Virus record (IMG/VR): IMGVR_UViG_3300042387_000438
Location: 1-64,000 of that record
Origin: a virus
Strand: one strand, 5' to 3'
Length of the DNA: 64,000 bases
The notes under the pieces were generated by a model. The model was not told the DNA's origin and searched no databases. It saw only the letters and a program-made list of their open reading frames with translations. A program made the position numbers and the translations under genes. Positions 7,581-31,584 of this stretch are shown one piece after another (position 1 is the first letter of the stretch; every line of letters begins with the position of its first letter).

Positions 7581-9236
7581 TTAGATATTTTGCAAATCTT
7601 TAACATAAATCTTACCGTAGTACTCAGGACGCACCATTTTCTTAGCGTAACGAGTCATCACACCTCTACGTGGAGTAAAGTTTTGTGGGTCGTACACTAA
7701 AGGAGTCATAATCAAAGGAACATATGGAGCGTAAACTGCACCTGTCTCTAAGAAGTTGTTACCTCTATATCCTAATAAGATTTCGTTAGAAGTCATATAA
7801 GGGTTTTTGTAAACAGTGTAGCGATTAGCCATAGCACCTACTTGAGTTACACCAGCTGCGAAAGATGTTGCATCTTTATCAGCGTTTACTACGAATCCAG
7901 GAATAGATTCTAAGATAGTACAAACATCAGGAGAAGCAACGATGAAGTTAGCTCCACCTCTCAATGTTAATTGGTGAATCTTATTAGATACCTTATTGAT
8001 TTTAGTTCCTAAAGTCTGGAACCAAGTGTTCTTTTGGTAAGCCATTGCAGAAACTGCACCACCCCAAGCTGCTTGTCCAGTTGCACCATTGTTTAAGTAT
8101 TCTTCACCAATAGTTGCAGACCAGTATTCAGTTGTTAATGCGTTGCTCTTTAACATATCTAAGATTTCTAAGTCAATCTCTAATGAGATATAATCAGATA
8201 ACATAGAAGTTAATTCAGCTTCAGCATCGATTGAGTGATATGCGTTTAAGTCTTGAGCTAATTCAGGAGTCCAAACTGCTTTCAACTTACGAGTCTTAGC
8301 AACGATTGCCTCTGATTTCAATTCTAAGTCGATTTCAGGAATATCCAATGCAGTTGTTGTGTTACCAGCAGCGTTTGCAGTTGAATCTTCAAAATCTCCT
8401 CTATCGTAAGCTACAGGAACTTCAGAATAGATTACGTTAGTTGTACCACCAGCTAATGCTAAAGATGATGCAGAAACGAATAAAGTTACATTAGTACCAG
8501 ATTTAAAGTTATACTGTCCTAATGTAGAGTTAGTGTTGTTAAATGCAGCAACACCAGCAGCATTAACCGCTTGGAATGAACGAACTGCTTCAGTATCAGC
8601 TGTTGCCGAAATGTTTGCAGATGCGATTGTTAATTTAACAATTTTATTAGCAGCTGCAGAAGCTGATAATGCTGAATCGTATCCTAAATCAGCCCAAGTA
8701 GCTGAAGCAGAAGTGATGTTACTAGCAGCAACAGCTACAGTTGCATCGTTTACTGAATAACCATAACGGCCTTCACCATATAAACCACCTGTTGCTGCAT
8801 CAGTTCTACCAAAGTTAGCTGCTGAACCAGTTGCGTTAGTACCACCGAAAAGTGATTTTCCACCGAATTGTCCTGCTGCTCCTTGTGAAGAACCATATTT
8901 GAAATCTAAGAAGAATACAAGACCAGAAGGTAAGTTCATAGGTTGTACACTAACGAATTCTTTAGAAGCAATCTCACCGAAGATTCTTCTTACTAAAGGT
9001 AAAGCTACACCACTCCACTCTTCTGAACCAGAAGAAGTACCAGTTTGAGTTGCCTCGTCCAACAATTGCTTAGCTTGGTTCTCTAAAAGAACTGCCATAG
9101 AGTGTTGGTCTCTATCTTTCATACCTTCTAATAGACCGGTTTTCTCCCACTTAGATTTCAATTGACGTGTTTCAGCCAACATTACTGCTTGTGGGTTTTT
9201 GCCTTCCATTAACTTGGATAAATCAAAATTTGCCAT
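7581..9236 (-). CDS. gp23: Major capsid protein (T4 gp23-like)
   Basis: 551 residues, close to the usual size of gp23. The N-terminal segment with WEKTGLLEG and MAVLLENQAKQLLDE, the following W.GVALPLVRRIFGEIASKEFVSVQPMNLPSGLVFFLDF, and the C-terminal FTPRRGVMTRYAKKMVRPEYYGKIYVKDL are hallmarks of the T4-type capsid family. The first 60-80 residues probably contain the propeptide removed by the prohead protease. The gene follows the acidic scaffold gene by 26 bases, the same order as T4 22-23, and is closed by two terminators, as expected for the most abundant late product. Confidence 0.97.
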   Translation of the reverse strand: MANFDLSKLMEGKNPQAVMLAETRQLKSKWEKTGLLEGMKDRDQHSMAVLLENQAKQLLDEATQTGTSSGSEEWSGVALPLVRRIFGEIASKEFVSVQPMNLPSGLVFFLDFKYGSSQGAAGQFGGKSLFGGTNATGSAANFGRTDAATGGLYGEGRYGYSVNDATVAVAASNITSASATWADLGYDSALSASAAANKIVKLTIASANISATADTEAVRSFQAVNAAGVAAFNNTNSTLGQYNFKSGTNVTLFVSASSLALAGGTTNVIYSEVPVAYDRGDFEDSTANAAGNTTTALDIPEIDLELKSEAIVAKTRKLKAVWTPELAQDLNAYHSIDAEAELTSMLSDYISLEIDLEILDMLKSNALTTEYWSATIGEEYLNNGATGQAAWGGAVSAMAYQKNTWFQTLGTKINKVSNKIHQLTLRGGANFIVASPDVCTILESIPGFVVNADKDATSFAAGVTQVGAMANRYTVYKNPYMTSNEILLGYRGNNFLETGAVYAPYVPLIMTPLVYDPQNFTPRRGVMTRYAKKMVRPEYYGKIYVKDLQNI

Positions 9237-9262: not shown

Positions 9263-10354
9263 TTATTTAATGATACCAGCTAATTGCTTAAAGCGATTTG
9301 CTAATTCATTTGTATTTTCCGAAATAATTTGTTTTACCGGTGCAGTTGAAGCAGATGGCTTAGATGCTAACCCTTCAGTTATGCTTTTCTTAGCTTGTGC
9401 TACTTTTCTTTCAGTACCAGTGAATTTCATTGATTCAGATAATGTTGCGTAAACCAATTTAACTTCTCTTACGTTAGAAGTTCTGTCTAAATTCTCTACA
9501 ACTTTAATTTTTTGCTCATTAGTTAGATTATATCCTCTGAACAATTTGTTAGTGTAAAGTAATTTAGCGTTTAATAAATTTACTTCGTTGATAGTTTTTC
9601 TCAAAGATTGAATAGTTGAATATGCTTCTTTCAATTCAGATTGCATTGCTGCCATTTCTTCTTCGTTTCCTGCTTCTTCTTCTTCAGAAACTTCTTCATC
9701 ATCTCCGTAACCCATCTCACGAAGGATTTCGTCTAAATCGATAGTTTCTTCTTCCTCTTCCATAGCTGGAGCTTCTTCTTCTTCACCTTCCATTGCCGGT
9801 GCTTCTTCATCTTCTCCTTCGTATGCTGTCTCAACTCCTGTTGGGTCTTCGTATCCTAATTCATCGGATTCTTCCATACCTAACTCATCTTCTAATTCTC
9901 TGATGATAGATTCTAAATCTAACTCATCTTCATCAGCTTCAGGTGCCATTTCTTCACCTTCTGCTGCGTACTCAGCCTCTTCTTCACCTTCCATTGCCGG
10001 TGCTTCTTCGTCTTCGCCTTCCATTAAATCATCTACTTCTTCGTGTCCTTCTAACTCATCACCAGCTTGTGCTGATTGTGAAGCGATTCCACTCAAGTCA
10101 GTATTACCATCGTTTGCGTTTACTGCTGGTTCTGCGTTATCACCCTTACCAATTTCACTAGATACATCATTATCTTCGTTCATATCTGCTTCTTCTTCAT
10201 CACCTTCCATTTCGGCTTGTAATTTTCTAGAAAGAATAGATTGTAAACGAGGAGTAAATGCTTCTTCTAATGCGATTTTAGCGTTGGCAATAGCAGTTTC
10301 ACGTACAGCTTTAGCGTCAGCGATAGCTTCTTTTAATAATTTTGAACTTGCCAT
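9263..10354 (-). CDS. gp22: Prohead core scaffold protein (gp22-like)
   Basis: 363 residues. The N-terminal helix (LLKEAIADAKAVRETAIANAKIALEEAFTPRLQSIL) is followed by about 180 residues of extremely acidic low-complexity sequence with three copies of an EDEEAPAMEGEEE-like unit. It ends in a helical C-terminus (LLNAKLLYTNKLFRGYNLTNEQKIKVVENLDR) typical of T4-like scaffolds. It is encoded immediately before the capsid gene and should form the inner core on which gp23 assembles, to be degraded by the gp21-type protease. Sequence identity to T4 gp22 would be low; the assignment rests on position, composition and the conserved C-terminus. Confidence 0.85.
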   Translation of the reverse strand: MASSKLLKEAIADAKAVRETAIANAKIALEEAFTPRLQSILSRKLQAEMEGDEEEADMNEDNDVSSEIGKGDNAEPAVNANDGNTDLSGIASQSAQAGDELEGHEEVDDLMEGEDEEAPAMEGEEEAEYAAEGEEMAPEADEDELDLESIIRELEDELGMEESDELGYEDPTGVETAYEGEDEEAPAMEGEEEEAPAMEEEEETIDLDEILREMGYGDDEEVSEEEEAGNEEEMAAMQSELKEAYSTIQSLRKTINEVNLLNAKLLYTNKLFRGYNLTNEQKIKVVENLDRTSNVREVKLVYATLSESMKFTGTERKVAQAKKSITEGLASKPSASTAPVKQIISENTNELANRFKQLAGIIK

Positions 10355-10573: not shown

Positions 10574-12745
10574 TTAATGAACCTTAATACCAGTCTTATT
10601 TACGTTGTTTGCTAATCCCTTATCAAACAAATATTTAACCTTTTCTTCCCAAGTTGGTTTGTTAGCATTAACCCACATATTAAAATCAACTTTTTTATTA
10701 AATTGATTGATTTGTCTTACTAATGCACTTAATACCAATTCTTTTGAGTTATCGGATGATTTATCTTTAATAGTTGATTTTAACCAAGCCTTTGCATCAA
10801 CATCCGTTACTTTATCAGTTTCATCATCAACTAAACTAAAGAATAACTTTCCTTTGTTATTTGATAAAATTGATTTGTAAACACCTTCTTTGATTACCGA
10901 TTCTTCAATGTATTTTTCACCTCTAAAATATTTAGCTCTTCTTTCTAAATCTGCTTTGTTCTTAAAGATAAGAATATCCCAAAAATCACTACCATCTTTG
11001 TGTTTTGATACACCATTGTGAGCACTAATACTATATTTTGCTTTACCGATTGGTGGATTTATTTTGAATGCTTTCTTTCCTTCAGTTACTACCGATTCGT
11101 TTGTGTAATTTTTTACATACCATTTGAAAGAAGAATTATTAGGAGTTCCAACTAATGCCTGAACAAAACGAATTCTCTCCGGCAATTTGCCTTTGGTAAC
11201 GTGAGTTAATATTTCTTTTGCATTTAAGTTGTTATCATCAATAAACTTTTGAACTGCCTCTTTTCTAGTGTTAGTCATTGAAGCGATTCCCATTGCTTCA
11301 TGTGATATTGATTCGTTTACGGATTCTCTTAAATATACTGGTGAGTATTTATCATATTTTGCAGTACCATCTAATATATTACCCCTAGCACCCTTTGCAG
11401 GTGTATTAAATCCTGCTGCTTTTAATAAATCTCCTTTCTTAAATCCTTTGGATGGATTATCTTCCATTGCTACAAATCCCCATGCAGAACGATTTCCAGA
11501 ATATTTTCTATTTTGTTGAACAATTCTAGCATATTTTCCACCTTTGAAATCGGTAGTATATTCTTGTTCAGGAAATTGTTTGTTTAATTTATCTAAGAAT
11601 TTGTTTATATCGGATTTAATATCTTCAACAATAACCGATTCGATAACAATTCCGTTTTCATCTCCTCTTTTAGCAGTTTTGATACCACCTTCGATTGAAT
11701 CTAATTTATGTCTAACTTTCTTTGAACCTGTTATCTTACCTTTTTGGTCGCATGGTGCTAATGTTGCAGTAGTATCATCCATTTCAACAACTTTGTAGTA
11801 TTTACCACCTTCGATTCCTTTTAATCCAGTAAATCCTTGTCCATAAATTATAGAACCAACATATAAATTGGTTGGGTATTTTGCTTCGTTTACCGATTCG
11901 TTTTCTATAATACTATTAAACAAATCACCAGATAACGCAATTGCCGCACCATATTTATGATTCCAAATATTTCGCCAAGCATCATCCAATTTTACAATAC
12001 CAGATTTTGTTGGTTTAGAAATAACCATATCTACAATATTTTCAAACTTTTTAAGTTCAGAAATAAATGTTTTTATTTTGCTATCAGCTTCAGTATATTT
12101 TGGATGTGGTTTGTATTTGTGCTTTAGAGTTTCTTTAATAGCATTTTTTAACACATTACCAAAAGCAGCAACTGCTTGCTGTACATCTTTCTTTTCTCTT
12201 ATAACGGATGTATGTAATGCAGCAACATTATTATTAATAGCCACAACTAATCTAACTCCCCAATCATCTTTTGGTTGTATCTTAGCTTCGTTTACCGATT
12301 CCATTTTAGAACGAATCTTATTTGCAATATTTGATAATTGAGATTTATCCACATCTAATGCATCTATTACTTGTGCCACCAATTGTAATTTTGCATTGTT
12401 ACTTAACTTTGAATCTTTTATTTTATCAATAGCCATTTGTAATTTAACTTTTACAGCGGATGGTATTGTTGCTTGAGGCAATTCAGTTGCATCTTCGTTT
12501 ACCGATTCTCTCAAACTCTCTCTATATGTTTGACGGATGATTTCTTTTAATTGTTTTTCCATATTTTCTTTTTTCACATGATTGGGTAAACCTTTGTGTT
12601 TAGTTGATGCATAATCTTTTGCGTCTGCATCACTCATTGAATCAGCTACTTTTTCAACTTCCGATGATGGATTATCTAATTCACCCTTTTGAGCGGCGTG
12701 AACCATTCCCATAAATCTTTGTTGTGCTTTTGATTTTGCAGGCAT
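10574..12745 (-). CDS. Putative head polyprotein: DUF3008 domain plus modules divided by ESVxxE sites
   Basis: 723 residues. Residues 1-60 (PAKSKAQQRFMGMVHAAQKGEL...DAKDYASTKHKGLP) match the DUF3008 family. The rest consists of seven dissimilar lysine-rich segments whose borders carry ESVNE, ESVIVE, ESVVTE or ESVIKE (glutamates at 84, 153, 287, 374, 478, 555, 620), each followed by A, S, D or G. V/I-x-E before a small residue resembles the cut site of T4 gp21 in internal head proteins (L/I-x-E). Residues 62-76 (MEKQLKEIIRQTYRE) resemble the N-terminus of the 188-residue prohead-cluster protein. The ATG has an AAAGGA ribosome site. Head location and processing are inferred; individual module functions are unknown. 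Confidence 0.65.
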   Translation of the reverse strand: MPAKSKAQQRFMGMVHAAQKGELDNPSSEVEKVADSMSDADAKDYASTKHKGLPNHVKKENMEKQLKEIIRQTYRESLRESVNEDATELPQATIPSAVKVKLQMAIDKIKDSKLSNNAKLQLVAQVIDALDVDKSQLSNIANKIRSKMESVNEAKIQPKDDWGVRLVVAINNNVAALHTSVIREKKDVQQAVAAFGNVLKNAIKETLKHKYKPHPKYTEADSKIKTFISELKKFENIVDMVISKPTKSGIVKLDDAWRNIWNHKYGAAIALSGDLFNSIIENESVNEAKYPTNLYVGSIIYGQGFTGLKGIEGGKYYKVVEMDDTTATLAPCDQKGKITGSKKVRHKLDSIEGGIKTAKRGDENGIVIESVIVEDIKSDINKFLDKLNKQFPEQEYTTDFKGGKYARIVQQNRKYSGNRSAWGFVAMEDNPSKGFKKGDLLKAAGFNTPAKGARGNILDGTAKYDKYSPVYLRESVNESISHEAMGIASMTNTRKEAVQKFIDDNNLNAKEILTHVTKGKLPERIRFVQALVGTPNNSSFKWYVKNYTNESVVTEGKKAFKINPPIGKAKYSISAHNGVSKHKDGSDFWDILIFKNKADLERRAKYFRGEKYIEESVIKEGVYKSILSNNKGKLFFSLVDDETDKVTDVDAKAWLKSTIKDKSSDNSKELVLSALVRQINQFNKKVDFNMWVNANKPTWEEKVKYLFDKGLANNVNKTGIKVH

Positions 12746-12784: not shown

Positions 12785-14119
12785 CTATGAAAATAAGTAA
12801 AAATAGTCAGTATGTTTGTCCGATTGGATTTTTTGTCTGATTCGTTCATCCGATACACCAAATCTTTCACCTGCATCTTTTAGTGTGTAGAATAGTTCTC
12901 CCTCACAACTTATCGTATGTACCTTATCTCTAACTTGGATGTCCTTTAGAGTCCTTTCATGTGCATCATAAGTAATAGTTGTTAAAGGAGTTTCCAACTT
13001 TTTCCAATGTCTATAATGGTCAGCTTTTGATTCTAAACGATTACGAATTTCAGTTTCACTATATTCAATGTACTCTGCAGCTTGTACAGGAGACTCAAAG
13101 TAATACCCATCTATACAATATTTTAAGATAGGATATGTTTCCTCACCATTTACCTGCCACCCTTTGTATTTGGTTTTTGGTGAAAGGCATCTTCTTTCTA
13201 CTTCCGATGCTACTAACTCATTTGGATTTATTGAAATTGCCGCTTCTCTGAATGATTTGTATTGTTTTCCACCAACTACACATTTGTAAGTACCATCCCA
13301 TTCAATATCTTCCGTTGCCAAATCAGGATTTCCTTTTACAAATACTAATACGTTTTGATGAACAGATGCTACCTTACGATTACGTTTGAAATATGTATCT
13401 ACCACTCTTCCAGCCTGATGTTGTGAATTAAATAGTACCATATCGTTATAGAAGTGTAAACCAACTTCTTCCATTGCTGAAATAGTTTTGTTTACCAATC
13501 CTCTATACTTTCCAATTTTGTAATCCCCTGTCTTTGATACCTCTCTAACTTCCGATACCACAACTGCAAAGAATCTATTGTTCTTTAACTTTTCTGCTGA
13601 TTTTTGTAATATAGAAATGTATCTATCATCAAATTGTGCATCCGCCATATTAGATAAATCATTCGCATTATCACTATATACCTCCAAATCGTAGTATGGT
13701 GGGCAAGTAAATACAAAATCATAGGTATTCTCCTCCAATACATTTAATAATAGGTAACTATCCCCACCCATCCATCGAGGTTTATCGGATTGTTTTCTAT
13801 TTGCATCTATTTGTGTTTGTGATATATCGATACCATCATATTTGAATCCCATCTCCGTTGCCACAATTCCCCTCACACTTCCGCCAGCAAATGGGTCTAA
13901 TATCTTACCACCCTTTGGAACAAACCACTCATACATCTTTTCGGATAGAGTAGCATCGAATACTGAAACAGTATCTTCATCATCCCAAAACTTACTATTT
14001 GATTGAGTATCTTCCCTACCTAACTCTGATTTGATATTATAGGTTTGTATCCACCAACGTTTACGGTCTTGCCATTCTTTGGTGCGAGTATCTAAAATTG
14101 AAAATGGTTTAATTGCCAT
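12785..14119 (-). CDS. DNA methyltransferase with C-terminal modular DNA-binding repeats
   Basis: 444 residues from the ATG of MAIKPFSILD; a longer frame starting at TTG runs back through a terminator and was not used. Residues 75-81 (DPFAGGS) are the SAM-binding motif I and CPPYY at 139-143 the catalytic motif IV of the N4-cytosine/N6-adenine class. About residues 280-444 hold three degenerate repeats of the NUMOD1/homing-nuclease-associated type (GGKQYKSFREAA, DGYYFESPVQAAEYI, CEGELFYTLKDAGERFGVS), each a strand pair plus a helix-turn-helix. It should methylate phage DNA at a specific site, perhaps to escape host restriction. It has its own host-type promoter inside the head gene cluster and looks like an insertion there. 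Confidence 0.85.
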   Translation of the reverse strand: MAIKPFSILDTRTKEWQDRKRWWIQTYNIKSELGREDTQSNSKFWDDEDTVSVFDATLSEKMYEWFVPKGGKILDPFAGGSVRGIVATEMGFKYDGIDISQTQIDANRKQSDKPRWMGGDSYLLLNVLEENTYDFVFTCPPYYDLEVYSDNANDLSNMADAQFDDRYISILQKSAEKLKNNRFFAVVVSEVREVSKTGDYKIGKYRGLVNKTISAMEEVGLHFYNDMVLFNSQHQAGRVVDTYFKRNRKVASVHQNVLVFVKGNPDLATEDIEWDGTYKCVVGGKQYKSFREAAISINPNELVASEVERRCLSPKTKYKGWQVNGEETYPILKYCIDGYYFESPVQAAEYIEYSETEIRNRLESKADHYRHWKKLETPLTTITYDAHERTLKDIQVRDKVHTISCEGELFYTLKDAGERFGVSDERIRQKIQSDKHTDYFYLFS

Positions 14120-14139
14120 GGGTTTTATTATAGTAACCA

Positions 14140-14160
14140 CAAATATACAAAAAAAGCTTG
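14140..14160 (-). promoter_or_regulatory. Host-type promoter of the methyltransferase
   Basis: Minus strand TTG-N20-TATATTTG, fitting the Bacteroidota TTTG/TAnnTTTG pattern; TATATTTG ends 20 bases before the ATG. The TTG lies within the stem of the preceding terminator. Confidence 0.7.
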
Positions 14161-14176
14161 GGATTACCAAGCTTTT
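14149..14176 (-). terminator. Intrinsic terminator before the methyltransferase
   Basis: Ten-base-pair stem AAAAGCTTGG/CCAAGCTTTT with a GATTA-type loop and a T-run on the minus strand. It ends the head-core transcript 29 bases after the stop codon of the 504-residue gene. The stem's A and T arms could also work in the other direction. Confidence 0.85.
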
Positions 14177-14204: not shown

Positions 14205-15719
14205 CTAATCTGTTTCATCAAACTCACCCTTCATATCTTTATAAGCTTGTCTAGCAGCTGCTCCCTTTATCATTCTTGATGCTGGGTCTGCATTTTTTAA
14301 TCTTTTTACAGTCAATATTTGTTTTTCTATTAAGTTTCTATACAATTTAACATAATCATCTTTACTAATTAATTTATTGTTTAATAAAGATAATATAAGT
14401 GCGGGTTTTTTACCTCTTGTTTTTGCATCTAATTGAATAGTACCATTTAATCTAGCCAAATCATTAGCTACATTAACTATATTATCAAGTTTACCATTAA
14501 AAATTTTTTCCAAATTTGGTACATTTACATATGCAGTAGCTAAATCTAAAATTTGAGATGGTGTAAGAGTTTTTTGGGTATATTGTTGTTTACCAAATGC
14601 ATATGATGTTTGCTCATTCACAATTCCTTCAGGCACACAATTTGGAACTTCTCTACCATTCTTGTCTTTCATTCCAACTTGTTTGTATCCCTTCCAACAA
14701 GGGTCATTTTCCATTAACTTTGTTAATTTAATTGTACCCTCATTTTTCATATATGGTTTATTATCAAATACCGATTGAATCAAATCTGCTTCTTTATGGA
14801 AACCATTCATTCTTAATGTAAATGCAATACTATCCGCTGCATCAACACCATCCCATCCAGATGCTTGTGATACATCCGTACCATAATCATCAATCTCACC
14901 AGTACCATTCATATAAATCGAACCATCTGCGGAATTCTTACGAATATCTGCCATTTTTTCTTTATACTTAGGGTCTTTCATCGATGGGTACTCCGGTTTT
15001 TTTGCAAATTCAGGCTTTCCTTCAATTGCTGCAACTAATTCTCTTGCTTCACTATGGAAGTTTGAATCAGTTAATGCAGAAACTGCTGCTTGTAACATTG
15101 CTTCTTTATATTTTTCATTACCCAACTTTTGAGGAGTAATACCATATTGTTCTGCTTTCTTTTTTGCTTCTTTGTTTACTTGTGGATTACCTTTTCTTTG
15201 GTTTTTAGGTTCTGATTTTATAGGGTCATTTTTTTGTGAAAACGGATTGAATAACTTTCTACTTTCAATTTCTTTTGATGTTGATGGTGCAACTTGTGCA
15301 TCTTTTTGATATGGAAACTTCATTGGGTTGTATGGTTCTAACTCATCAGTATTTACATTACCATCTGCATCAGTTTTCGTTTCACCTCTTTCATCCCCCA
15401 ATCTTACAATACCAACTGTCTTTGTTCTTTTGTTATATACAACTGAGTCTACACCTAAATCATACTTTGGAGTTTCTTCTTTACCAGCATCAGATTTAGG
15501 AGCTTCACCACCTCTATTTTTTGTATAATCTCCACCAAACATATCACTACCAGCTGCTTTTGGTGCCGATGGTTGTTCTTTATCTTTTATAGTATCATGT
15601 GTACCTGCTTTGATTGCAGCATCTCTACTATCTTTAGATTTGAATACAGAAGTTTTACCAGTTGATTTATTAGTTGCGGTAAACGTTTCCTCTTTAAGTA
15701 GTTGATTTAATTTAATCAT
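14205..15719 (-). CDS. Head-cluster protein with capsid-targeting-like N-terminus
   Basis: 504 residues from MIKLNQLLKE; this ATG lies one base after the preceding stop, whereas the longer frame would overlap that gene by 44 bases. MIKLNQLLKE followed by E resembles T4 capsid targeting sequences cut after x-x-E. The middle has MENDPCWKGYKQVGMKDKNGREVPNCVPEG, a motif recurrent in virion proteins of environmental T4-like phages, and a lysine-rich C-terminal helical domain (LNNKLISKDDYVKLYRNLIEKQ). No enzymatic motif recognised. Probably packaged inside the head. Confidence 0.6.
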   Translation of the reverse strand: MIKLNQLLKEETFTATNKSTGKTSVFKSKDSRDAAIKAGTHDTIKDKEQPSAPKAAGSDMFGGDYTKNRGGEAPKSDAGKEETPKYDLGVDSVVYNKRTKTVGIVRLGDERGETKTDADGNVNTDELEPYNPMKFPYQKDAQVAPSTSKEIESRKLFNPFSQKNDPIKSEPKNQRKGNPQVNKEAKKKAEQYGITPQKLGNEKYKEAMLQAAVSALTDSNFHSEARELVAAIEGKPEFAKKPEYPSMKDPKYKEKMADIRKNSADGSIYMNGTGEIDDYGTDVSQASGWDGVDAADSIAFTLRMNGFHKEADLIQSVFDNKPYMKNEGTIKLTKLMENDPCWKGYKQVGMKDKNGREVPNCVPEGIVNEQTSYAFGKQQYTQKTLTPSQILDLATAYVNVPNLEKIFNGKLDNIVNVANDLARLNGTIQLDAKTRGKKPALILSLLNNKLISKDDYVKLYRNLIEKQILTVKRLKNADPASRMIKGAAARQAYKDMKGEFDETD

Positions 15720-15720
15720 T

Positions 15721-16332
15721 TTATAATTTATTAAATAATTTTTCAGTATCAATATCAAATGCATAACCGGCTCCAGCGTATCTTTTGTTTGGTATTACTG
15801 AAACTCCTAATTTCTTTTCTAAACGGATTTGTAATAATGATAAAAAATCTTCGTCTGCACCATCACCCAATTTTTGTTTTATGGTATCAATCTTTTCAAT
15901 TTCTTTTCTTGATTGTGGTAATAAAACTATATTGTTATTTGGAGATGATACATAGAATTGAACACCATTCGCTTGAACAAAATCAAACTTTGCAGTTGCT
16001 TCTTTGATTTGTTGCTTTGATTCGTTCTTTCCGTATTCGTGATAGTTTTCAGCAGCTTGTGAAATAAAGTTTCCTGCATTTGTAATGTGGTCTTGAATCC
16101 ACGCAGGTATGTTCTTTTCGTTTCCACCGATTTTAGATTTTAATTCAGTTGCGTTCTTTATAATTGCATCCAAAGTGTTATTTGCCATTGATACTTCGTG
16201 GTCTTCACCCTCTTTAACTTGCGGAGCGAATGCTCTTGCATAAGGGTTAGACATTACCTGTCCTAATTGTGGTTTTAGTTTACCATAAGTAGAACTATCA
16301 GCAAAGTTAAACATTTCAGTTAAACGAATCAT
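15721..16332 (-). CDS. Prohead-core-cluster protein of unknown function
   Basis: 203 residues. The segment EVSMANNTLDAIIKNATELKSKIGGNEKNIPAWIQDHITNAGNFISQAAENYHEY is a helical pattern conserved in head-cluster proteins of T4-like environmental phages. The N-terminus (MIRLTEMFNFADS) could be another targeting sequence, and the C-terminal part is a compact alpha/beta segment ending GAGYAFDIDTEKLFNKL. It sits one base from both neighbours, so it is translated with them. Probably an internal head or core component. Confidence 0.55.
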   Translation of the reverse strand: MIRLTEMFNFADSSTYGKLKPQLGQVMSNPYARAFAPQVKEGEDHEVSMANNTLDAIIKNATELKSKIGGNEKNIPAWIQDHITNAGNFISQAAENYHEYGKNESKQQIKEATAKFDFVQANGVQFYVSSPNNNIVLLPQSRKEIEKIDTIKQKLGDGADEDFLSLLQIRLEKKLGVSVIPNKRYAGAGYAFDIDTEKLFNKL

Positions 16333-16333
16333 A

Positions 16334-16891
16334 TTATTTTTTTCTTAAACCCAATCTTTCTCTCATAACATCAGGCTGAATATCTGCAATCTCATAGTAA
16401 CGAGATAGAATATGTCCCATATCTTCGTATAATGAATGTAATCTTTCATCCATTGCTCTTGCTTCTACTGCGAACTTTTGGAAACTTTTATCCATCTTAT
16501 CCAATTCACTCATATTACGTTTAACAGTTACACCATCAAACCAATCTGCAGTTTCTCTTAAAGTTAATTCTTTTGCTGCTTCAACAATTCCACCTAAAGT
16601 ATTTGCAACCTCCGTTAAATCGGATGCTCTTTGCATTTGCTCTTGGAATGTGTTGTATGTAGAGATGATTTCTAAAAAGTGTTTCTTAACCTCATTACTT
16701 AAAGGTCTTTTATCTCCGTTTAAACTTTCTTTAATGCTAAACTTTCCGTTTACAATCTTTACTTCGTTTAAATTAGTTTTACGAATGTCATTGTACCCCT
16801 TAGTTACATTAGTTGCTTTTCTATTAGCTTCTACTTTTAAGCTAATCTTATTATTGTGTACATAATCGTATATGTCAAATGGCTTGCTCAT
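16334..16891 (-). CDS. Helical prohead-core-cluster protein of unknown function
   Basis: 185 residues, mostly predicted helix: YNTFQEQMQRASDLTEVANTLGGIVEAAKELTLRETADWFDGVTVKRNMSELDKMDKSFQKF and a C-terminal helical hairpin. I do not recognise a characterised family. Its ATG overlaps the stop of the protease gene by one base (TAATG), suggesting translational coupling. By position it may act in the prohead core or head-tail completion. Confidence 0.5.
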   Translation of the reverse strand: MSKPFDIYDYVHNNKISLKVEANRKATNVTKGYNDIRKTNLNEVKIVNGKFSIKESLNGDKRPLSNEVKKHFLEIISTYNTFQEQMQRASDLTEVANTLGGIVEAAKELTLRETADWFDGVTVKRNMSELDKMDKSFQKFAVEARAMDERLHSLYEDMGHILSRYYEIADIQPDVMRERLGLRKK

Positions 16892-17478
16892 TATGATATT
16901 TCAGTTATAATTTCTCTCATTAAATCTTGTGCTTTGCAATAATCTCCGCAAACATCAGTTCCAATTTGTTTTGTTACCGATTCGTTTACAGGTACCATAA
17001 ATGCACCATGTGTAGATGGATTAGAAACAAAATCCCAACCGATTAATTCAAAATCTTCCTGAACTTCTACTTTATTTCCTTCCATTTGTTTTGTAGAACC
17101 CATACCTCTTGATGATATACCTAATAGGATACCAGCTTTAAGTAATTCTTTAAGGATATTACCAGATGGAGTTGCAAGGATTTCAACCGTACCACATAAA
17201 TCATCGCCCTCCCAATGGATTTCTCTAACATTGTGTGATACGTTCTTTAAGTTGATTACAGTTGAATCAGGGTGGTCCAATTCACCTAATGCTCTACGTT
17301 CTTTGATAAGTTGCTCATACTTTTGAGCTTCTCTCATCAATGTAGGTTTTGGATATACTCTACCATTTTGATTCTCCGCACCAGCTCTTTGAAGAACACC
17401 TTTAACGATAGTTCTACCACCAGCATCCTCTTGCACCTTTCCTTCGAATAATTTGGTTTCTATTAAAAGATTCTTCAT
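16891..17478 (-). CDS. gp21: Prohead core protease (T4 gp21-like)
   Basis: 195 residues. GVLQRAGAENQNGRVYPKPTL at 27-47, ALGELDHP with His69, and GISSRGMGS with Ser122/123 fit the gp21-type (peptidase U9/S80) serine protease family, with the catalytic His and Ser in the expected order. EDFELIGWDFVSNPSTHGAF follows as the conserved C-terminal core. The enzyme sits in the prohead and cuts scaffold, capsid propeptide and internal proteins after x-x-E sites. Its own N-terminus (MKNLLIETKLFEG) and C-terminal tail (VNESVTKQ) contain such sites and may be self-cleaved. It lies between core-protein genes and the portal, as in T4 20-21-22-23. Confidence 0.92.
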   Translation of the reverse strand: MKNLLIETKLFEGKVQEDAGGRTIVKGVLQRAGAENQNGRVYPKPTLMREAQKYEQLIKERRALGELDHPDSTVINLKNVSHNVREIHWEGDDLCGTVEILATPSGNILKELLKAGILLGISSRGMGSTKQMEGNKVEVQEDFELIGWDFVSNPSTHGAFMVPVNESVTKQIGTDVCGDYCKAQDLMREIITEIS

Positions 17479-17485
17479 TTTGTTA

Positions 17486-17692
17486 TTATTTTACGGATTC
17501 GGATTTTTCACCTTTACCATTCCATGCTGCATCAATTTTATCAAAGAATGCTTTCTTTTCATCATCACTCATAGATGGAATAGATTTACCAGCTTTATCT
17601 AATGCCTTTTGGAAGAATGCCTGATATTCAGTTTCTTCTACCATTACTTCCTTAACTAATTCTTTTAGTTTTTGTTTTGTTATACCTGCCAT
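17486..17692 (-). CDS. Small prohead core protein
   Basis: 68 residues. An amphipathic N-terminal helix (MAGITKQKLKELVKEVMVEE) is followed by YQAFFQKALDKAGKSIPSMSDDEKKAFFDKIDAAWNGKGEK, a pattern conserved beside the protease gene in environmental T4-like phages. Size, charge and place suggest a counterpart of the small T4 core proteins gp67/gp68; that equivalence is inferred. It lies 7 bases before the protease gene. Confidence 0.6.
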   Translation of the reverse strand: MAGITKQKLKELVKEVMVEETEYQAFFQKALDKAGKSIPSMSDDEKKAFFDKIDAAWNGKGEKSESVK

Positions 17693-17693
17693 A

Positions 17694-18260
17694 TTACATT
17701 GAGTGGATTTTCTCCGCTATTTTATTTAATCTTTCTTTGATAGTATTTAAGTTACTATATGTTCTTTTGTAGTAACCTGTTCTGTCCAAATTGTTTTCAG
17801 TTTTTAATCTTGAATACCAATTAACAAACTTTTCAATTTCAGATAATTGAGATTTTACACTTCTCAATCCCACAGCTATTTTCTTTTGTGGAGAAGCATC
17901 TTCTCTTTTTAATTCTAACCAACGATTTTCAACCAATTCCATAGAAGATACATCTGCCATAGTTTCATCTTTATCATTTTCTTTTTTTGATGGAGTTGCT
18001 GTTGGTTTTAATTTATGTGGGTCTAAATCCAATACACCAATATCTTCTTTTAATTTACCTTCCTCTAAATCATCTACAACAGTCCCACCAGTAACTTTAG
18101 CTAATCTATTGTTTTTCTTTCCAGTTTGACCGGGTTTAGAAAATGCAGCAGGAGTGTTGTAACCAGCAACTGCACCAGTTCCAGTCATTTCCTCCAATTC
18201 ATCTTCGGATTGAATCTCTTTGACTAATGTTCTGATTATTTCTCTTAATTTATTTTCCAT
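17694..18260 (-). CDS. Prohead-cluster protein with GTGAVAGYNTPAAF motif
   Basis: 188 residues. Starts with a helix (MENKLREIIRTLVKEIQSEDELEE) resembling the segment at residues 62-76 of the 723-residue polyprotein. Next is MTGTGAVAGYNTPAAF, a short motif shared by many virion-associated proteins of T4-like environmental phages, then a disordered charged stretch and a C-terminal helical bundle (ENRWLELKREDASPQKKIAVGLRSVKSQLSEIEKFVNWY). Its first 11 bases overlap the end of the upstream gene. Likely a core or internal head protein; no enzymatic motif. Confidence 0.55.
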   Translation of the reverse strand: MENKLREIIRTLVKEIQSEDELEEMTGTGAVAGYNTPAAFSKPGQTGKKNNRLAKVTGGTVVDDLEEGKLKEDIGVLDLDPHKLKPTATPSKKENDKDETMADVSSMELVENRWLELKREDASPQKKIAVGLRSVKSQLSEIEKFVNWYSRLKTENNLDRTGYYKRTYSNLNTIKERLNKIAEKIHSM

Positions 18261-20973: not shown

Positions 20974-21411
20974 TTACCATTTTCGACAACTCCAATAGTT
21001 TGCCTTTGTTCTTGGACCGGGATTATCACAATTCATTCTTGCTCTAAATGATTTTCGTCTTGCTGGATTGTCTTTTTTAATAACCATTCCCTTCTGTCCA
21101 AAATTCACTTTAATCACCTTACCTGTTTTTGGGTTTTTGACGTAGACCTTAAATTTCTTTACATCGCCTTGCATCGGTTTCCCTAACTTTACTTCTCTTC
21201 CCTGATATTCTGCTTCAAACACACAATTACAATTTGTCTCATTCAATTCGTTTGAGTATTGTTGTAAGTATGCAATAAAGTCATCCATATCTTCTTGCTC
21301 AACATCCAATTCATCATAATCATCAATTGGATTATCTTGCGGAGTATCACCCATAGCATATGCTTGGTCTATATACTCATCTTCGTTTAGTAAAGATTTT
21401 AACTTAATCAT
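20974..21411 (-). CDS. Small basic protein with targeting-like N-terminus and YWSCRKW end
   Basis: 145 residues. MIKLKSLLNE followed by D resembles a capsid targeting sequence, then an acidic stretch (DDYDELDVEQEDMDDF) and a basic C-terminal domain: KKFKVYVKNPKTGKVIKVNFGQKGMVIKKDNPARRKSFRARMNCDNPGPRTKANYWSCRKW. That domain, resembling DUF5872, recurs in environmental T4-like phages, sometimes on larger head proteins. It may bind DNA in the head after removal of the acidic leader; this is inferred from charge distribution. It lies between terminase and portal. Confidence 0.6.
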   Translation of the reverse strand: MIKLKSLLNEDEYIDQAYAMGDTPQDNPIDDYDELDVEQEDMDDFIAYLQQYSNELNETNCNCVFEAEYQGREVKLGKPMQGDVKKFKVYVKNPKTGKVIKVNFGQKGMVIKKDNPARRKSFRARMNCDNPGPRTKANYWSCRKW

Positions 21412-23798: not shown

Positions 23799-26700
23799 TT
23801 ATTCGTAAAAAAGACCTAATATTTGATTAAGTGGAGCGAATGCTCCTGTTAATTTGTAAGTGTTTCCGTTATATACAAATACGATACCTTCATTTGGAAC
23901 TATCTTTTCAAATCCACCTAATGCCTGTAATCTTTGTAATTCTAATTTAAGTTTATCCAACTTCTTAGGGTCTCCCAACTTTCTAACATCATCAACCGTC
24001 TTATGTAATCTAGCTACCATTTGTTTAGTTGCTTCCGTTGGATTTGCGGTAAGTACTGATTCCATAAATGAAAGTACATCTGCACCAACACCTAAGAATA
24101 TTTCTTCAAATTTCATTAGGTTATCTTTTGCTATTTTAGCTTGGTCTTTCTTTTCAGTATTGTCTGCCCAACTTCTTAATTTAGGGTTTTGTATTGTTGC
24201 TATTCTGAATCCTTTATCTCCAAATGCCCATCTCTTAACCAAACCAATCTTTTCTTGTGCATCTAATCCTTTTGCGTTTTTATCCACAAAGTTACTCCAC
24301 CACGCTTGATGATAATCAGCTACCCCATCAGAATCAGATAACCCAAACTCACTTTGTAGTTTAGATATCATACTCATATACTTTGATTGTAGTTTTGTTA
24401 AATTCTCACTCTTTGGTAATTTCTGCATTGGTGGTCCTTGTATTGTGTATTTGGATTGAACACTTGCATTTACTTGCTTAATCATACCAGCTAATATTCG
24501 TGCTGATTGTTGATTCTCACCACTTATATTACCATCGATATCATAATCAAATGTACCATGAAATACTAATAGTGGTTGGTTGTATGGAATTACGTTTACC
24601 GATGTTGGATATATTACTTCCAAATTCATAAACGAACTTCCATCATTAAATACTTTTTTTCTTTGTGGTTCGGATAATGAACCAATTGCTTTTGATAAAT
24701 CACTCATAGCAAAGTTGTAAGCATCGGTTAGTCCGCCTCTACCAGCAAACTTATCAGCTACCTGTCCTATTGTCATAGCACCCTCACCTTTATTCTTTAG
24801 ATGTGATTTGTTTCTAGCAGCAACTAATCTTCCATTTACCCAACTAATTGCCAATGCTTGTCCATCGGTTTTTTCTCTTGCTACATCCAAATCTCCAGTA
24901 AGTGCTTTCTTAACGATGTTCTTTAGGTCAGAGAACGTAAGGTTCATTTCAATATCAAACGGATGGTGCATGTGTCCATAAGCCCCACCTTCAATTATTA
25001 AATCTTTACTTTCGTTTACTTTTTTAACAGGTTCGTATCCTTTGTTTTGTTTATCTTTTGTATCCGTTTGATGACCAGGTTCTATTTCTCTATCATCATC
25101 AAAATCAATTGTATCTAATTCAGCAGGATAACCATAATCAGGTGTATATGATGATGATTTATGATGTTGTGTAAAATTGTGGTCAGCAGTTCCATCTGCT
25201 TTATGATTTTTTGAAGTTATTGCTTCAAATGCTTTATTTTTAACTTTGTACCAACCACCGCCGGGTAATCTAAATATTCGTGCCGGTACTTTTAGTGTAG
25301 AACCAATTGGATATTTGTTTTGATATTTTTTATCAATATGAACTATTTTTGTAATAAATTCATTTGTTTTATTATCAGCCCCAACTAACTCAACTTGTAA
25401 TTCAATTATTTCACCATTGATTTTTATTTTCTTTCCGTAGATACCTTTTGTAATTTCACTCAAAGATTGTTCGGATACATAAACTGGTGTTGAAGATTTG
25501 AAATCATCCTTTCTCATTATGGTTTTAGCAATCAATTTGTTTGCTACTGTCATAAATGGAATATTGATGTTTGTTCTCTTATCTTTAACTACAAACTCCT
25601 TATATTGTTTTACAAAATCTAAAAATTTCTTTTTATTTTTTGCCAATCTTTTAAAGAAACCAGTTAATTCGGCTGCTGATATTTGTTTACCATTACGAGG
25701 GTCATTTAATCTTTGGAAAAAATGGTCAGTTTCCTTTCCCAATTCAATATCTTCGGGAGATAATTGTTGGTCAGCATATTTCTCAACCTGGTCTAAATCA
25801 GATTTAGCCATCTCCGTTAAATCTTCTGGTTTAGGAAAGTTGTATTTTAATATACGATTGTACTTATCAGTTTTTCCATCGTTTTGGTCATCCGTTGGTA
25901 ACTTTTGGTCTACTGATTTTTTCTTTTCATATTCAGATGGGTCTTCGTGATAAAAACACCAACCCTCTAAATTATCTAAATAGTATTCTGCATTATTGTA
26001 ATCATCCCAATCAGCATTCCACATTGTACCACTTGTTGCATTACCATCGTTGTAGAATGCACCATTTCCACTATATTCTAAAATAGTTTCTTCATCAACC
26101 TCCTCATACCCACTCATACCTTTATTCTTCAACTTCTTACTTACTTTGGCAACATCATCTGCTTTCGGAGCACCATTTATGTATCCACCCGGTAAAGATA
26201 AACCAACACCGGCTCCTCCACCCAATCCCATTTCATCCAATGCGGTTATATAATCTTCAGCAATTTCGTTTAATTCTTCTTCAGATATTAATGATATTTT
26301 TACATCCATTTCAGTATCTTCCCAAAATCTTTTTGGTTTTTTAATTTTTTTCTTTGGTTCAGTTTCTACCCAATCTTCAGTATGGTATGGGTCTTGCGCT
26401 GGATTTAGTTCAGATTCTTTATAGTTTTTAAGTGAATATGTTACTTTTCTAAATGTTGATTCCGATTCTTTTTTTCTACCCTTACCACGCATCCAATCAC
26501 CCTTTGGTTTATCTATTTGGGTGTATCCACCTTGTCTAAACCAACCTTCAGGTTTCCCTTTATCTAATATACGAGCTTGTCCATCGGCAACGTAGTTTGG
26601 GTTTGGTTCACCTGGTTCAGCACCAGCCATACCAAAGTTAGATGATTCATTAAATAGGTTTGATTTTGGTGGGATTCTAAATGTAGTTGCTTTCTTACCA

Positions 26701-27413
26701 TTGATAGTTGGCATACCATGCTCATCTTTATCAATATTTTTTACAACTACTCTTTTGTTCTTAAACTTGCCCATCAAAAGAGTATCACCTACATTCACAT
26801 CTAAGTTAATATCTTCAGAAAGTTTTGCTAATTTTAGAGTAATAAATTTGAAAACAGTTGCATCAAATTTTGGATATGCTTTTAAGAATCCCTCTTTCTT
26901 TTCGTCATCAGTTCCTTTACTTAACCAATTACGAACATCAGTTCCACTTATAGGATTTGATTGAGCAGGTGAAGCATAAACGTATCCCTTATCCAAATAT
27001 CCCATCTCTACCTTACCTTTATATGGAGTAAAATAATTTCCACCCAAACGTTGTTCATCTTTCTCACCAACTACAACTATTAAACCAGTCTTAGCTGCAT
27101 CGTATGAACTTACAATTTCCGTAGGTTGATATGGATTTTTAACCTGAACTATTTTGTTTGATGGGATACCAAACATTTTAGTCATTATGGTTTTTTTCTC
27201 TCTGAAATCAAATGGAGATTTTTGGTTATCGGTTTTATTGGATGTTGCTATGTAAACATCATCTTTTCCGAATTTTGATACAAGTTGTTTGTATGTGGCG
27301 AAGTGCCCCTTATGAAAAGGTTGAAATCTACCAGAATAGACAACTATTACGTTTTCCATTTCGGCAGATTCCCCTAATATGCTTTCTACTAAAAAGTTAG
27401 ATAATTCACTCAT
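23799..27413 (-). CDS. 1204-residue fusion: cytidylyltransferase-like domain plus ATP-dependent-ligase-like domain
   Basis: MSELSNFLVESILGE at the start resembles a capsid targeting sequence. VIVVYSGRFQPFHKGHFATYKQLV (HxGH, His34-His37) with GTDVRNWLSKG about residue 155 marks a nucleotidyltransferase of the NMN/pantetheine-phosphate adenylyltransferase superfamily. A long, partly disordered middle (about 200-800) follows. From 805 GGAYGHMHHPFD leads to EKTDGQALAISW with Lys848 in KxDG, FMNLEVIYP near 928, EGIVF at 1175 and YKLTG at 1186, the order of motifs I, III, IV and V of covalent nucleotidyltransferases (DNA/RNA ligases). The C-terminal family recurs in environmental T4-like phages. 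Either a virion-delivered repair enzyme or a head-cluster housekeeping protein; substrates are not predictable. Confidence 0.7.
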   Translation of the reverse strand: MSELSNFLVESILGESAEMENVIVVYSGRFQPFHKGHFATYKQLVSKFGKDDVYIATSNKTDNQKSPFDFREKKTIMTKMFGIPSNKIVQVKNPYQPTEIVSSYDAAKTGLIVVVGEKDEQRLGGNYFTPYKGKVEMGYLDKGYVYASPAQSNPISGTDVRNWLSKGTDDEKKEGFLKAYPKFDATVFKFITLKLAKLSEDINLDVNVGDTLLMGKFKNKRVVVKNIDKDEHGMPTINGKKATTFRIPPKSNLFNESSNFGMAGAEPGEPNPNYVADGQARILDKGKPEGWFRQGGYTQIDKPKGDWMRGKGRKKESESTFRKVTYSLKNYKESELNPAQDPYHTEDWVETEPKKKIKKPKRFWEDTEMDVKISLISEEELNEIAEDYITALDEMGLGGGAGVGLSLPGGYINGAPKADDVAKVSKKLKNKGMSGYEEVDEETILEYSGNGAFYNDGNATSGTMWNADWDDYNNAEYYLDNLEGWCFYHEDPSEYEKKKSVDQKLPTDDQNDGKTDKYNRILKYNFPKPEDLTEMAKSDLDQVEKYADQQLSPEDIELGKETDHFFQRLNDPRNGKQISAAELTGFFKRLAKNKKKFLDFVKQYKEFVVKDKRTNINIPFMTVANKLIAKTIMRKDDFKSSTPVYVSEQSLSEITKGIYGKKIKINGEIIELQVELVGADNKTNEFITKIVHIDKKYQNKYPIGSTLKVPARIFRLPGGGWYKVKNKAFEAITSKNHKADGTADHNFTQHHKSSSYTPDYGYPAELDTIDFDDDREIEPGHQTDTKDKQNKGYEPVKKVNESKDLIIEGGAYGHMHHPFDIEMNLTFSDLKNIVKKALTGDLDVAREKTDGQALAISWVNGRLVAARNKSHLKNKGEGAMTIGQVADKFAGRGGLTDAYNFAMSDLSKAIGSLSEPQRKKVFNDGSSFMNLEVIYPTSVNVIPYNQPLLVFHGTFDYDIDGNISGENQQSARILAGMIKQVNASVQSKYTIQGPPMQKLPKSENLTKLQSKYMSMISKLQSEFGLSDSDGVADYHQAWWSNFVDKNAKGLDAQEKIGLVKRWAFGDKGFRIATIQNPKLRSWADNTEKKDQAKIAKDNLMKFEEIFLGVGADVLSFMESVLTANPTEATKQMVARLHKTVDDVRKLGDPKKLDKLKLELQRLQALGGFEKIVPNEGIVFVYNGNTYKLTGAFAPLNQILGLFYE

Positions 27414-27871: not shown

Positions 27872-29020
27872 TTATAAGAATTTTTCTAATTCTTTTATTA
27901 CCGATTGTGGTGTTATTGATTTGGTACACTCAAATTGTCTATCCGTACCTTTGTGGTCAGGACACCAATTCCAATCACCAGCATCTAATCTATACCGATT
28001 GAAACATCCACTACACTTTCCTTCAGGTGCACCAATTCTTACACAATCTTGCATTTCTGCCCAATCATATGAGAATCCACTCACCAATACCGTTGGAGTA
28101 TTAACTGCCCAACTTAACCAACTCAACCCACTACCAATTCCTATAAATGCTTTTGATTTTCTAAGTTCATCAATTACATCACTCAAAGGACCGTTTGGAT
28201 GTTTAACAATTCCCGTTGGTAATTTATTCCCCATATAATCATCTCCTTCTTTTGATATTAGTTTGACTGTGTATCCTTTTGAGTTTAACCAATCAACTAC
28301 ATACTGCCAGCCATCTTTGTTATTCCAAAATTTAGGTTGAGCCGTACCAAATACACCAATAGTAATTTGTTTTAATTCTGAATTTATTTCAATTGGATTG
28401 TGTTTTATTTTAGGTCTAACCTCCACATAATCTAATCCTAAAATATCCGAACACATTTTTTGCAATGGTTGTTTTCTAAAATCATTTGGGTTTTTTTGTA
28501 AGTTTGGTTCGTTATTATCATTGTAAAATAAACCAACCGAATACATTGCATAAAGGTTTTCAGCTGCTTCACCGGGATTAATAAATTCTAATTCAGGGTA
28601 TTCATCTACAAATAAATCATTCATAAAAGTAGATGTTACAACTTTACAATTATGTTTTTTACGGAACTCATCTACATATGGAAACCAAGCCATTGTATCA
28701 CCCAATGCTTTTGAATCCAATGGGATGTAAACTCTCTTATCAGTTGCATCATATAAATGTTCATACCAAAGTTTTCCATTTTGATAAATTTGTATTTTCC
28801 ATTCTACAAAATATTCTTTAGTACACCGTGTCCAACAATTATTTCCAATATCAGATGCAAATATACGTTTACCACTCCTATTATCTATAAAATCAACGGT
28901 GTACTCTGCTTTGTAAGGTCCTTTTATTTCTACAAATGCACCTTTAACAAAATTAACCGATACGCTGTTTTTTACTTCGGTTATATTATTTATATTTCTT
29001 TTTAAATTTTCGTATATCAT
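27872..29020 (-). CDS. TibC/BAHT-like O-heptosyltransferase (GT9-type)
   Basis: 382 residues from the ATG of MIYENLKRN, which overlaps the previous stop as ATGA; a TTG three codons earlier is less likely. RVYIPLDSKALGDTMAWFPYVDEFRKKHNCKVV is the diagnostic segment of bacterial autotransporter heptosyltransferases. The Rossmann half contains ITIGVFGTAQPKFWNN and AFIGIGSGLSWLSWAVNTPTVLVSG. Near the C-terminus four cysteines (CSGC, WCPDH, FECTKS; spacing 2, 13, 11) match the iron-finger of the family. Known members transfer heptose to Ser/Thr of repetitive surface adhesins. Here a phage virion protein is a likely acceptor. Whether the sugar is heptose is not readable. Confidence 0.85.
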   Translation of the reverse strand: MIYENLKRNINNITEVKNSVSVNFVKGAFVEIKGPYKAEYTVDFIDNRSGKRIFASDIGNNCWTRCTKEYFVEWKIQIYQNGKLWYEHLYDATDKRVYIPLDSKALGDTMAWFPYVDEFRKKHNCKVVTSTFMNDLFVDEYPELEFINPGEAAENLYAMYSVGLFYNDNNEPNLQKNPNDFRKQPLQKMCSDILGLDYVEVRPKIKHNPIEINSELKQITIGVFGTAQPKFWNNKDGWQYVVDWLNSKGYTVKLISKEGDDYMGNKLPTGIVKHPNGPLSDVIDELRKSKAFIGIGSGLSWLSWAVNTPTVLVSGFSYDWAEMQDCVRIGAPEGKCSGCFNRYRLDAGDWNWCPDHKGTDRQFECTKSITPQSVIKELEKFL

Positions 29021-31197: not shown

Positions 31198-31202
31198 TAT
31201 AA

Positions 31203-31210
31203 CAAATATA
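31203..31210 (-). promoter_or_regulatory. Possible host-type -7 element before the trifunctional gene
   Basis: TATATTTG on the minus strand, but only 5 bases before the ATG, so a transcript from it would be almost leaderless; no convincing TTTG lies 19-21 bases upstream. Confidence 0.3.
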
Positions 31211-31237
31211 CGAAACTTTTTTGGTATTTCCTAATTT

Positions 31238-31522
31238 TTATTCAGCTTCTTCGTAAGTGATTGTACCATTAATTAAATCAATCTCTCCTTTTGGATATGC
31301 CTTTTCCATTACATACAATACCTCATTTAATTCTTCATTTTTTTCATCAAATTGAGTTTCTAAATTTTCCAATGAGAATTTAAAGTTTTTCAATTGAGTT
31401 TCAGCATCTCTTATTTGCAAATGCGCTTGTCCAATTGTTACAACTAAATTATTTATTTCGTCTTGCAGATTTCTTAATTTATTATAAGTTTCTTCTGCTA
31501 ATTGTTCACTACGTTGTGCCAT
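31238..31522 (-). CDS. Small coiled-coil protein, paralogue B
   Basis: 94 residues: a single long coiled coil (LAEETYNKLRNLQDEINNLVVTIGQAHLQIRDAETQLKNFKFSLENLETQFDEKNEELNEVL) ending KAYPKGEIDLINGTITYEE. The ending corresponds position by position to EKYPQGRINIQDGTVQYQ of the 120-residue gene. Function unknown; the pair brackets the two large glycosylation genes and each member has its own strong late-type box. Confidence 0.6.
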   Translation of the reverse strand: MAQRSEQLAEETYNKLRNLQDEINNLVVTIGQAHLQIRDAETQLKNFKFSLENLETQFDEKNEELNEVLYVMEKAYPKGEIDLINGTITYEEAE

Positions 31523-31545
31523 AATTTTATTCTATATGTTTATAT

Positions 31546-31553
31546 ATAAATAT
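31546..31553 (-). promoter_or_regulatory. Late-type promoter box of coiled-coil gene B
   Basis: Minus strand TATATTTATATATAAAC with the core 23 bases before the ATG. Confidence 0.65.
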
Positions 31554-31584
31554 ATGTTTTTTTATTTATCAAAACGATTATTTA

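Follow-up and report, generated by a model that had tools for sequence, protein, structure and literature searches.

Why does a protein encoded among the head genes of a phage carry nearly the same short peptide at seven positions, and what would these positions be used for? True polyproteins are a hallmark of eukaryotic RNA viruses and, to our knowledge, have hardly been described in tailed phages. The internal proteins of phage T4 are small and basic and are ejected into the host, one of them (IPI) blocking a restriction enzyme, and the T4 protease gp21 cuts after L/I-x-E; with Asp in place of the P1 Glu, T4 IPIII is no longer processed (PMC9026906). The protein studied here is encoded in a stretch of 64,000 nucleotides (the window), which is part of a 71.8-kb uncultured virus record. 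The original prediction read it as a precursor that is cut in the prohead into about eight internal proteins.

Results

The open reading frame at 10574-12745 (minus strand, ATG start) encodes 723 amino acids. It contains seven ESV-x(1-2)-E sites (ESVNE four times, ESVIVE, ESVVTE and ESVIKE) ending at E84, E153, E287, E374, E478, E555 and E620, exactly the peptides and positions that had been predicted. The residues after the sites are, in order, D, A, A, D, S, G and G, in agreement with the claim of A, S, D or G, and V-x-E or I-x-E is present at all seven. When the protein was shuffled 20,000 times, 19,420 of the shuffled sequences had no match, 573 had one, 7 had two and none had seven, so a chance origin of the sites was rejected. 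An assembly artefact was rejected as well, because the protein is encoded with 100% identity over all 723 residues in contigs of two other metagenomes (L003 and L004). The DNA of the four ESVNE sites is nearly alike (GAATCGGTAAACGAA three times, GAATCCGTAAACGAA once).

Table 1. Array modules, sites and associated genes in the window (an arrow marks the border or presumed cut following a site)
Feature	Position	Strand	Evidence
M0, carrier: DUF3008 domain and amphipathic helix MEKQLKEIIRQTYRESLRE, residues 1-84	12494..12745	-	Pfam DUF3008, 8e-8
Site 1, ESVNE↓D, residues 80-84, DNA GAATCGGTAAACGAA	12494..12508	-	
M1, residues 85-153; missing from L005, L006, L007; relative in L025 (76%)	12287..12493	-	
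Site 2, ESVNE↓A, residues 149-153	12287..12301	-	
M2, residues 154-287; in L005/L006, missing from L007	11885..12286	-	
Site 3, ESVNE↓A, residues 283-287	11885..11899	-	
M3, residues 288-374; relatives outside the carrier's close relatives: L039, L048, L064, L067	11624..11884	-	
Site 4, ESVIVE↓D, residues 369-374	11624..11641	-	
M4, residues 375-478	11312..11623	-	PHROG 5014, 1.2e-10
Site 5, ESVNE↓S, residues 474-478, DNA GAATCCGTAAACGAA	11312..11326	-	
M5, residues 479-555, five-helix domain	11081..11311	-	Predicted fold, pLDDT about 90
Site 6, ESVVTE↓G, residues 550-555; locally low pLDDT inside a confident two-domain model	11081..11098	-	
M6, residues 556-620, small strand-and-helix domain; duplicated in tandem in L005	10886..11080	-	
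Site 7, ESVIKE↓G, residues 615-620	10886..10903	-	
M7, last module, residues 621-723 and stop	10574..10885	-	
gp21-type prohead protease; tail PVNE↓S	16891..17478	-	Peptidase_S77, 7.5e-26; PHROG 'head maturation protease', 2.6e-50
Scaffold candidate (gp22 position), net charge -68	9263..10354	-	Position and composition
Major capsid protein gp23; presumed cut LLDE61↓A	7581..9236	-	
68-aa core gene, stops inside seam remnant GAATCCGTAAAATAA (17486-17500)	17486..17692	-	
145-aa protein; C-terminal module AEYQGREVKL... after CVFE↓A	20974..21411	-	PHROG 7595, 1.2e-11; border alignment
1204-aa NMNAT-like protein; second domain after LIIE↓GGAYGHMHHPFD	23799..27413	-	Pfam CTP_transf_like, 2e-7; border family 48

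Judging from its sequence, the virus is a distant T4-like phage. The capsid proteins most similar to its own come from an uncultured large phage (55%), Microcystis phage Mel-JY01 (52%) and Flavobacterium phage immuto (51%), followed by Rhodothermus phage RM378 (39%). On the minus strand, terminase and portal genes are followed by small core genes, the protease, more core genes, the gene for the 723-residue protein, a scaffold candidate for which no family match was found, and the capsid protein gene. The gp21-type protease named in the original prediction is encoded nearby, and the PVNE↓S in its tail is likely a self-cleavage site. The N-terminus of the 723-residue protein consists of the DUF3008 domain and a helix ending in LRE↓SVNE. 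PHROG matches of this carrier include two 'virion structural protein' families, and a DUF3008 homologue in cyanophage S-SCSM1, whose virion proteome comprises 45 proteins by mass spectrometry, is annotated as a virion protein and adjoins a virion NMNAT. A T4-like targeting start ending in x-E (MKKFSEIIE↓A, MKSFLQFLKE↓A) is present in NMNAT proteins of related marine phages, not in the 723-residue protein.

Linkage to head genes extends to the other loci collected: at least one head-assembly gene was found in 107 of 127 loci, and wherever an array and a gp21-type protease occur together they are on the same strand (87/87 pairs), usually about 3 kb apart or less. The 68-aa core gene directly upstream of the protease is a common array carrier elsewhere, and its counterpart in L006 runs on through ESVVTE into further modules.

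Three relatives (L005, 684 aa; L006, 604 aa; L007, 352 aa) keep the DUF3008 carrier with 91-94% identity to the window. Their alignment showed that modules are gained, lost, duplicated or replaced exactly between sites: M1 and M4 are missing from all three and M2 also from L007, M6 is doubled in L005, new modules are present, and every change is flush with a site. The sites were found at the module borders of these homologues, the point on which the prediction had been made to depend. The two tandem M6 copies (L005:11432-11821; GKKAFKINPP and GKKAFRINPQ) have diverged, which implies cassette duplication in place, while the DNA identity of L007 to the window (98% in M7, 82% in M3) implies mosaic descent. 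Relatives of M5, M6 or M7 are located within other proteins behind other carriers (L008-L015), those of M4 also exist as stand-alone proteins (in a Klebsiella phage, 110 aa, and in L015), and M5 has 27 distinct relatives among the collected loci. Altogether, modules follow at least 28 carrier families, several of them encoded in the prohead-core cluster, and 43 of the 121 module families with a known carrier are found behind two or more. The arrays are composed of cassettes exchanged between carrier genes at the joints.

In 126 loci with arrays, 141 proteins with at least two sites contain 490 modules (391 unique; mostly two to seven per protein, maximum nine), which form 139 families by single linkage (82 singletons), and the arrays fall into 107 clusters at 90% identity; as the 127 loci were mostly gathered through the motif itself, such abundance figures are biased, as are the codon figures except those from loci found by protein. 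A DNA pattern scan of viral contigs revealed at least 119 stretches with two seams 190-220 bases apart, and 84,980 bacterial species genomes gave no match to this pattern. No match to M5 or the 68-aa carrier was found among phage records, and no isolate carrying an array was found; the matches of a long array to isolates (Pelagibacter, Methylophilales and others) were limited to single modules.

Modules were aligned to homologues without ESV-x-E upstream (n = 146), and the residues just before the module were inspected. Here, [LIVM]-x-E directly precedes the module in 90 of 146 cases, compared with 1.4% of background positions, and offsets of one to four from the border gave only 0-11 cases; [LIVM]-x-E↓[AGS] is present in 72 of 146 (background 0.39%). 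The codons at these borders are mixed (GTA 21, GTT 8, GTG 3, GTC 1; AAT 24, AAC 21), so the signature is one of the peptide. It is uneven across families (per-family mean 45%; 13 of 25 families reach at least 50%), due partly to alignment-register noise and to one large family. All 20 six-residue ESV variants keep V, I or L before x-E (ESVVNE 11, ESVVTE 5, ESVIKE 2, ESVIVE 1, ESVLNE 1), and 69% of the joints are followed by A, G or S (P1'). Furthermore, the second residue before the first Glu of the joint is L, I, V or M in 44% (11-29% at neighbouring positions), so two sites may be combined in the joint, [LIV]-x-E↓SVNE↓A.

The same signature is found at the presumed cut sites of the capsid proteins, placed by homology to T4 gp23 (QLLDE↓A, QLVSE↓A, QLVKE↓A, QLIDE↓S and similar sites), where P3 is L, V or I in all 27 capsid proteins examined. 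The tails of the proteases carry MNE↓S, VNE↓S or similar (P[MV]NE↓S), which fits the C-terminal self-processing known for T4 gp21. The joints fit this gp21-like site logic of the same genomes, with one departure from L/I-x-E: P3 is V at the ESVNE joint, not the L or I preferred by T4 gp21. V is found at this position also in capsid proteins of several array-bearing phages.

The joints could also be flexible linkers that are never cut, in a multidomain core or virion protein working at full length, with the shared linkers as a by-product of recombination. Recombination alone could explain why the joint DNA is conserved beyond codon need (see below), and low model confidence at borders fits any linker. 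However, plain linkers need no constraint on borders, variants or P1', whereas borders devoid of ESVNE still carry [LIVM]-x-E↓[AGS], the six-residue variants keep V/I/L before x-E, P1' is limited to small residues, and the signature recurs where T4 cuts its capsid protein. We therefore regard uncut linkers as unlikely.

At the DNA level, too, the joint (GAATCNGTAAAYGAA) is conserved, and more so than its codons require. Among 324 ESVNE copies from the collected, largely motif-gathered loci, TCN encodes Ser in 323 (background about 73%), GTA encodes Val in 321 (48%) and AAC encodes Asn in 61% (32%); in protein-found loci, which are free of DNA-pattern bias, TCN and GTA are each used in 28/28 cases (backgrounds 78% and 45%). 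An AGY-serine version of the two-seam pattern, looser elsewhere, had no match in viral contigs. Wobble bases agree among the ESVNE copies within a protein (Asn 0.89 versus 0.53 expected; Ser 0.66 versus 0.45), and ordinary Asn codons give 0.57 versus 0.54 expected. Selection on the joint peptide alone was rejected because of these codon data, and a DNA seam alone because of the protease signature at borders without ESV-x-E. Conservation beyond codon need suggests a recombination seam, and the joint may serve as short shared homology for cassette recombination that is kept functional by the requirement of the protease.

Taken further, the codon bias at Val and Ser, the failure of the AGY-serine pattern and the shared wobble bases would also be explained if the seam were the target of a site-specific nuclease or recombinase driving cassette transfer, with protease cutting secondary or absent. 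Were the seam no more than a DNA target, copies out of frame or between genes would be expected as well, yet 422 of 422 motif copies sit in the ESVNE frame of an open reading frame, and no dedicated recombinase was identified adjoining the arrays. This explanation appears improbable; a dedicated recombinase acting on the seam in addition to protease processing is possible, since the two are compatible.

The modules have a median length of 70 amino acids without the joint and are strongly basic: net charge per 70 aa is +7.0 (98% positive), compared with +1.1 for other open reading frames and +3.4 for those of 60-150 aa, and family means are positive in 113 of 116 families (97.4%). The acidic scaffold candidate (-68) could hold such basic cargo. 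In a model of M5 and M6 (mean pLDDT 86), two separate domains are predicted, confidence being low at the two site positions alone (pLDDT < 50 at the M5/M6 border); the model of the full-length protein is poor (mean pLDDT 50). As no convincing PDB relative of the M5 and M6 model was found (best Z 6.9, a PH domain over 57 residues; none below E 0.1 with Foldseek), we claim no function for them. A PDB sequence search with the modules gave chance-level matches only. The 145 module representatives match six Pfam families, mostly weakly (best DUF5824, 1.8e-11) and none of them a peptidase, and 11 PHROG families, mostly of unknown function; none matches NCBIfam, and scattered, weak PADLOC matches were not trusted. 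In a further alternative, the protein would assist the core or scaffold and then be cleaved into small fragments that are lost, like much of T4 gp22, gp67 and gp68, its modules having no role after head maturation. In favour of this, the carriers are in the prohead-core gene cluster, and most T4 core-protein fragments disappear from the head. However, M5 and M6 are predicted folded domains, the modules are strongly basic, and 139 extremely diverse families together with stand-alone M4 genes are unlike a disposable acidic scaffold, so this alternative appears improbable.

Discussion

The arrays are probably (at roughly 0.8) cargo polyproteins processed by the prohead protease and built from exchangeable cassettes. 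The 723-residue protein would be translated as a single chain and enter the prohead core along with the acidic scaffold, where the gp21-type serine protease of the phage would cut every joint after [V/I/L]-x-E. The products, about eight small basic proteins, would remain with the DNA and be injected with it, and their functions may be directed at the host. As a peptide, the joint would be a protease site, often a double one; as DNA, it would be a shared short homology through which recombination adds, deletes, duplicates and moves in-frame cassettes between carrier genes. The predicted precursor of about eight proteins thus stood in all parts open to analysis here, cleavage and packaging being what we infer from them. 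The accompanying idea of one targeting signal is not established, given the diversity of carriers.

We see about even chances that the 15-bp sequence is at once a DNA recombination seam and a double protease site, so that landing between two seams is enough for any module to be packaged, released and injected, and that more than 100 unknown effector families are delivered in this way, replacing separate internal-protein genes and targeting signals. The arrays may work like the loading of T4 internal proteins, but from their sequence we do not assign them to the class 'internal protein'. IPI, IPII, IPIII and Alt of T4 resemble the modules in being small and basic, in belonging to the prohead core and in varying between relatives, and they are cut after hydrophobic-x-E, as is proposed for the arrays (PMC9026906). 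However, each has its own gene and its own N-terminal targeting peptide of about 10 residues ending in x-E, whereas arrays unite two to nine modules in one protein. T4 gp22, gp67 and gp68 are also core proteins with several hydrophobic-x-E cuts by gp21 and a similar gene neighbourhood; their fragments are scaffold pieces, mostly discarded, whereas array units are distinct, folded, exchangeable and positively charged domains.

The nearest published idea is that of the polyvalent proteins, described by Iyer et al. (2017) in phages and conjugative elements. These are multidomain proteins that are believed to enter the host along with the DNA and to be set free by proteolysis, and the authors draw a parallel to RNA-virus polyproteins (PMC5512222). 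Like them, the 723-residue protein has several distinct domains in one phage protein, and it would be packaged. Polyvalent proteins mostly contain an embedded metallopeptidase and large enzymatic domains (PMC5512222), whereas the arrays have modules of about 70 aa, one repeated joint and no peptidase domain that we could find, the head protease being the putative cutter; an embedded metallopeptidase or other catalogued polyvalent Pfam domain is absent from the 723-residue protein. In phiKZ and SPN3US (gp175/gp245), many head and ejected proteins are cut after a short x-x-E, sometimes with several motifs within one propeptide, but these cuts remove propeptides (13 of 14 sites are N-terminal), and no exchangeable module arrays are described (PMC10052503). 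Polymorphic toxin systems are likewise delivery carriers diversified by cassette recombination (PMC3482391); it is the C-terminal toxin domain that is swapped there, whereas arrays have many tandem modules with a common protease-site joint. No earlier description of such arrays was found in the open-access literature searched.

If this reading is true, widespread environmental T4-like phages deliver many proteins at infection as one string that is separated by the head protease, and the array layout resembles a plug-in system by which proteins are loaded into a virus head. The arrays point to candidate injected proteins in 139 families, small, mostly without annotation and of the class of the T4 anti-restriction protein IPI, which the border rule makes findable by sequence. 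The joint would be a natural DNA linker doubling as a protease site and could be used for loading proteins into phage heads.

Other features of the window and of related phages

The 1204-aa protein has an N-terminal NMNAT/cytidylyltransferase domain and, in its second domain, a KTDG motif (nucleotidyltransferase/ligase-like, by eye); in other loci, LLKE, LIME or LIAE precedes the same GGAYG. It is probably a second processed cargo protein. In Flavobacterium phage immuto (L136), the scaffold (16731-17972), annotated as 'DNA polymerase phi-like', carries EGFEQWLDSVSAQMDKFGKNNPTIQAIEKAV... duplicated in tandem, and a related core protein (14683-15765) has LNE↓A and IQE↓A joints without an ESVNE seam. 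The core-cluster protein WWT39312 of Microcystis phage Mel-JY01 (L137:15398-16564) is Alt-type ADP-ribosyltransferase-like by eye.

A DNA methyltransferase gene (12785-14170, minus strand; PHROG 498, 4.5e-58), whose product has C-terminal repeats resembling NUMOD-type DNA-binding segments, is inserted between the prohead-core genes of the window. An apparent fusion of an SbcD-like nuclease and an SbcC-like ATPase (gp47/gp46-like; 1047 aa; 39727-42870, minus strand) is a candidate source of recombination activity at the seams. An 878-aa protein with long GTSGTSGTSG repeats (2705-5341, minus strand) is possibly a fibre, and its repeats give spurious open reading frames on both strands. Finally, several glycosyltransferase-like genes (27872-32544, minus strand) are located within the structural-gene region; one of them encodes a 726-aa protein that, by eye, combines a glycosyltransferase-like part with a methyltransferase-like one.
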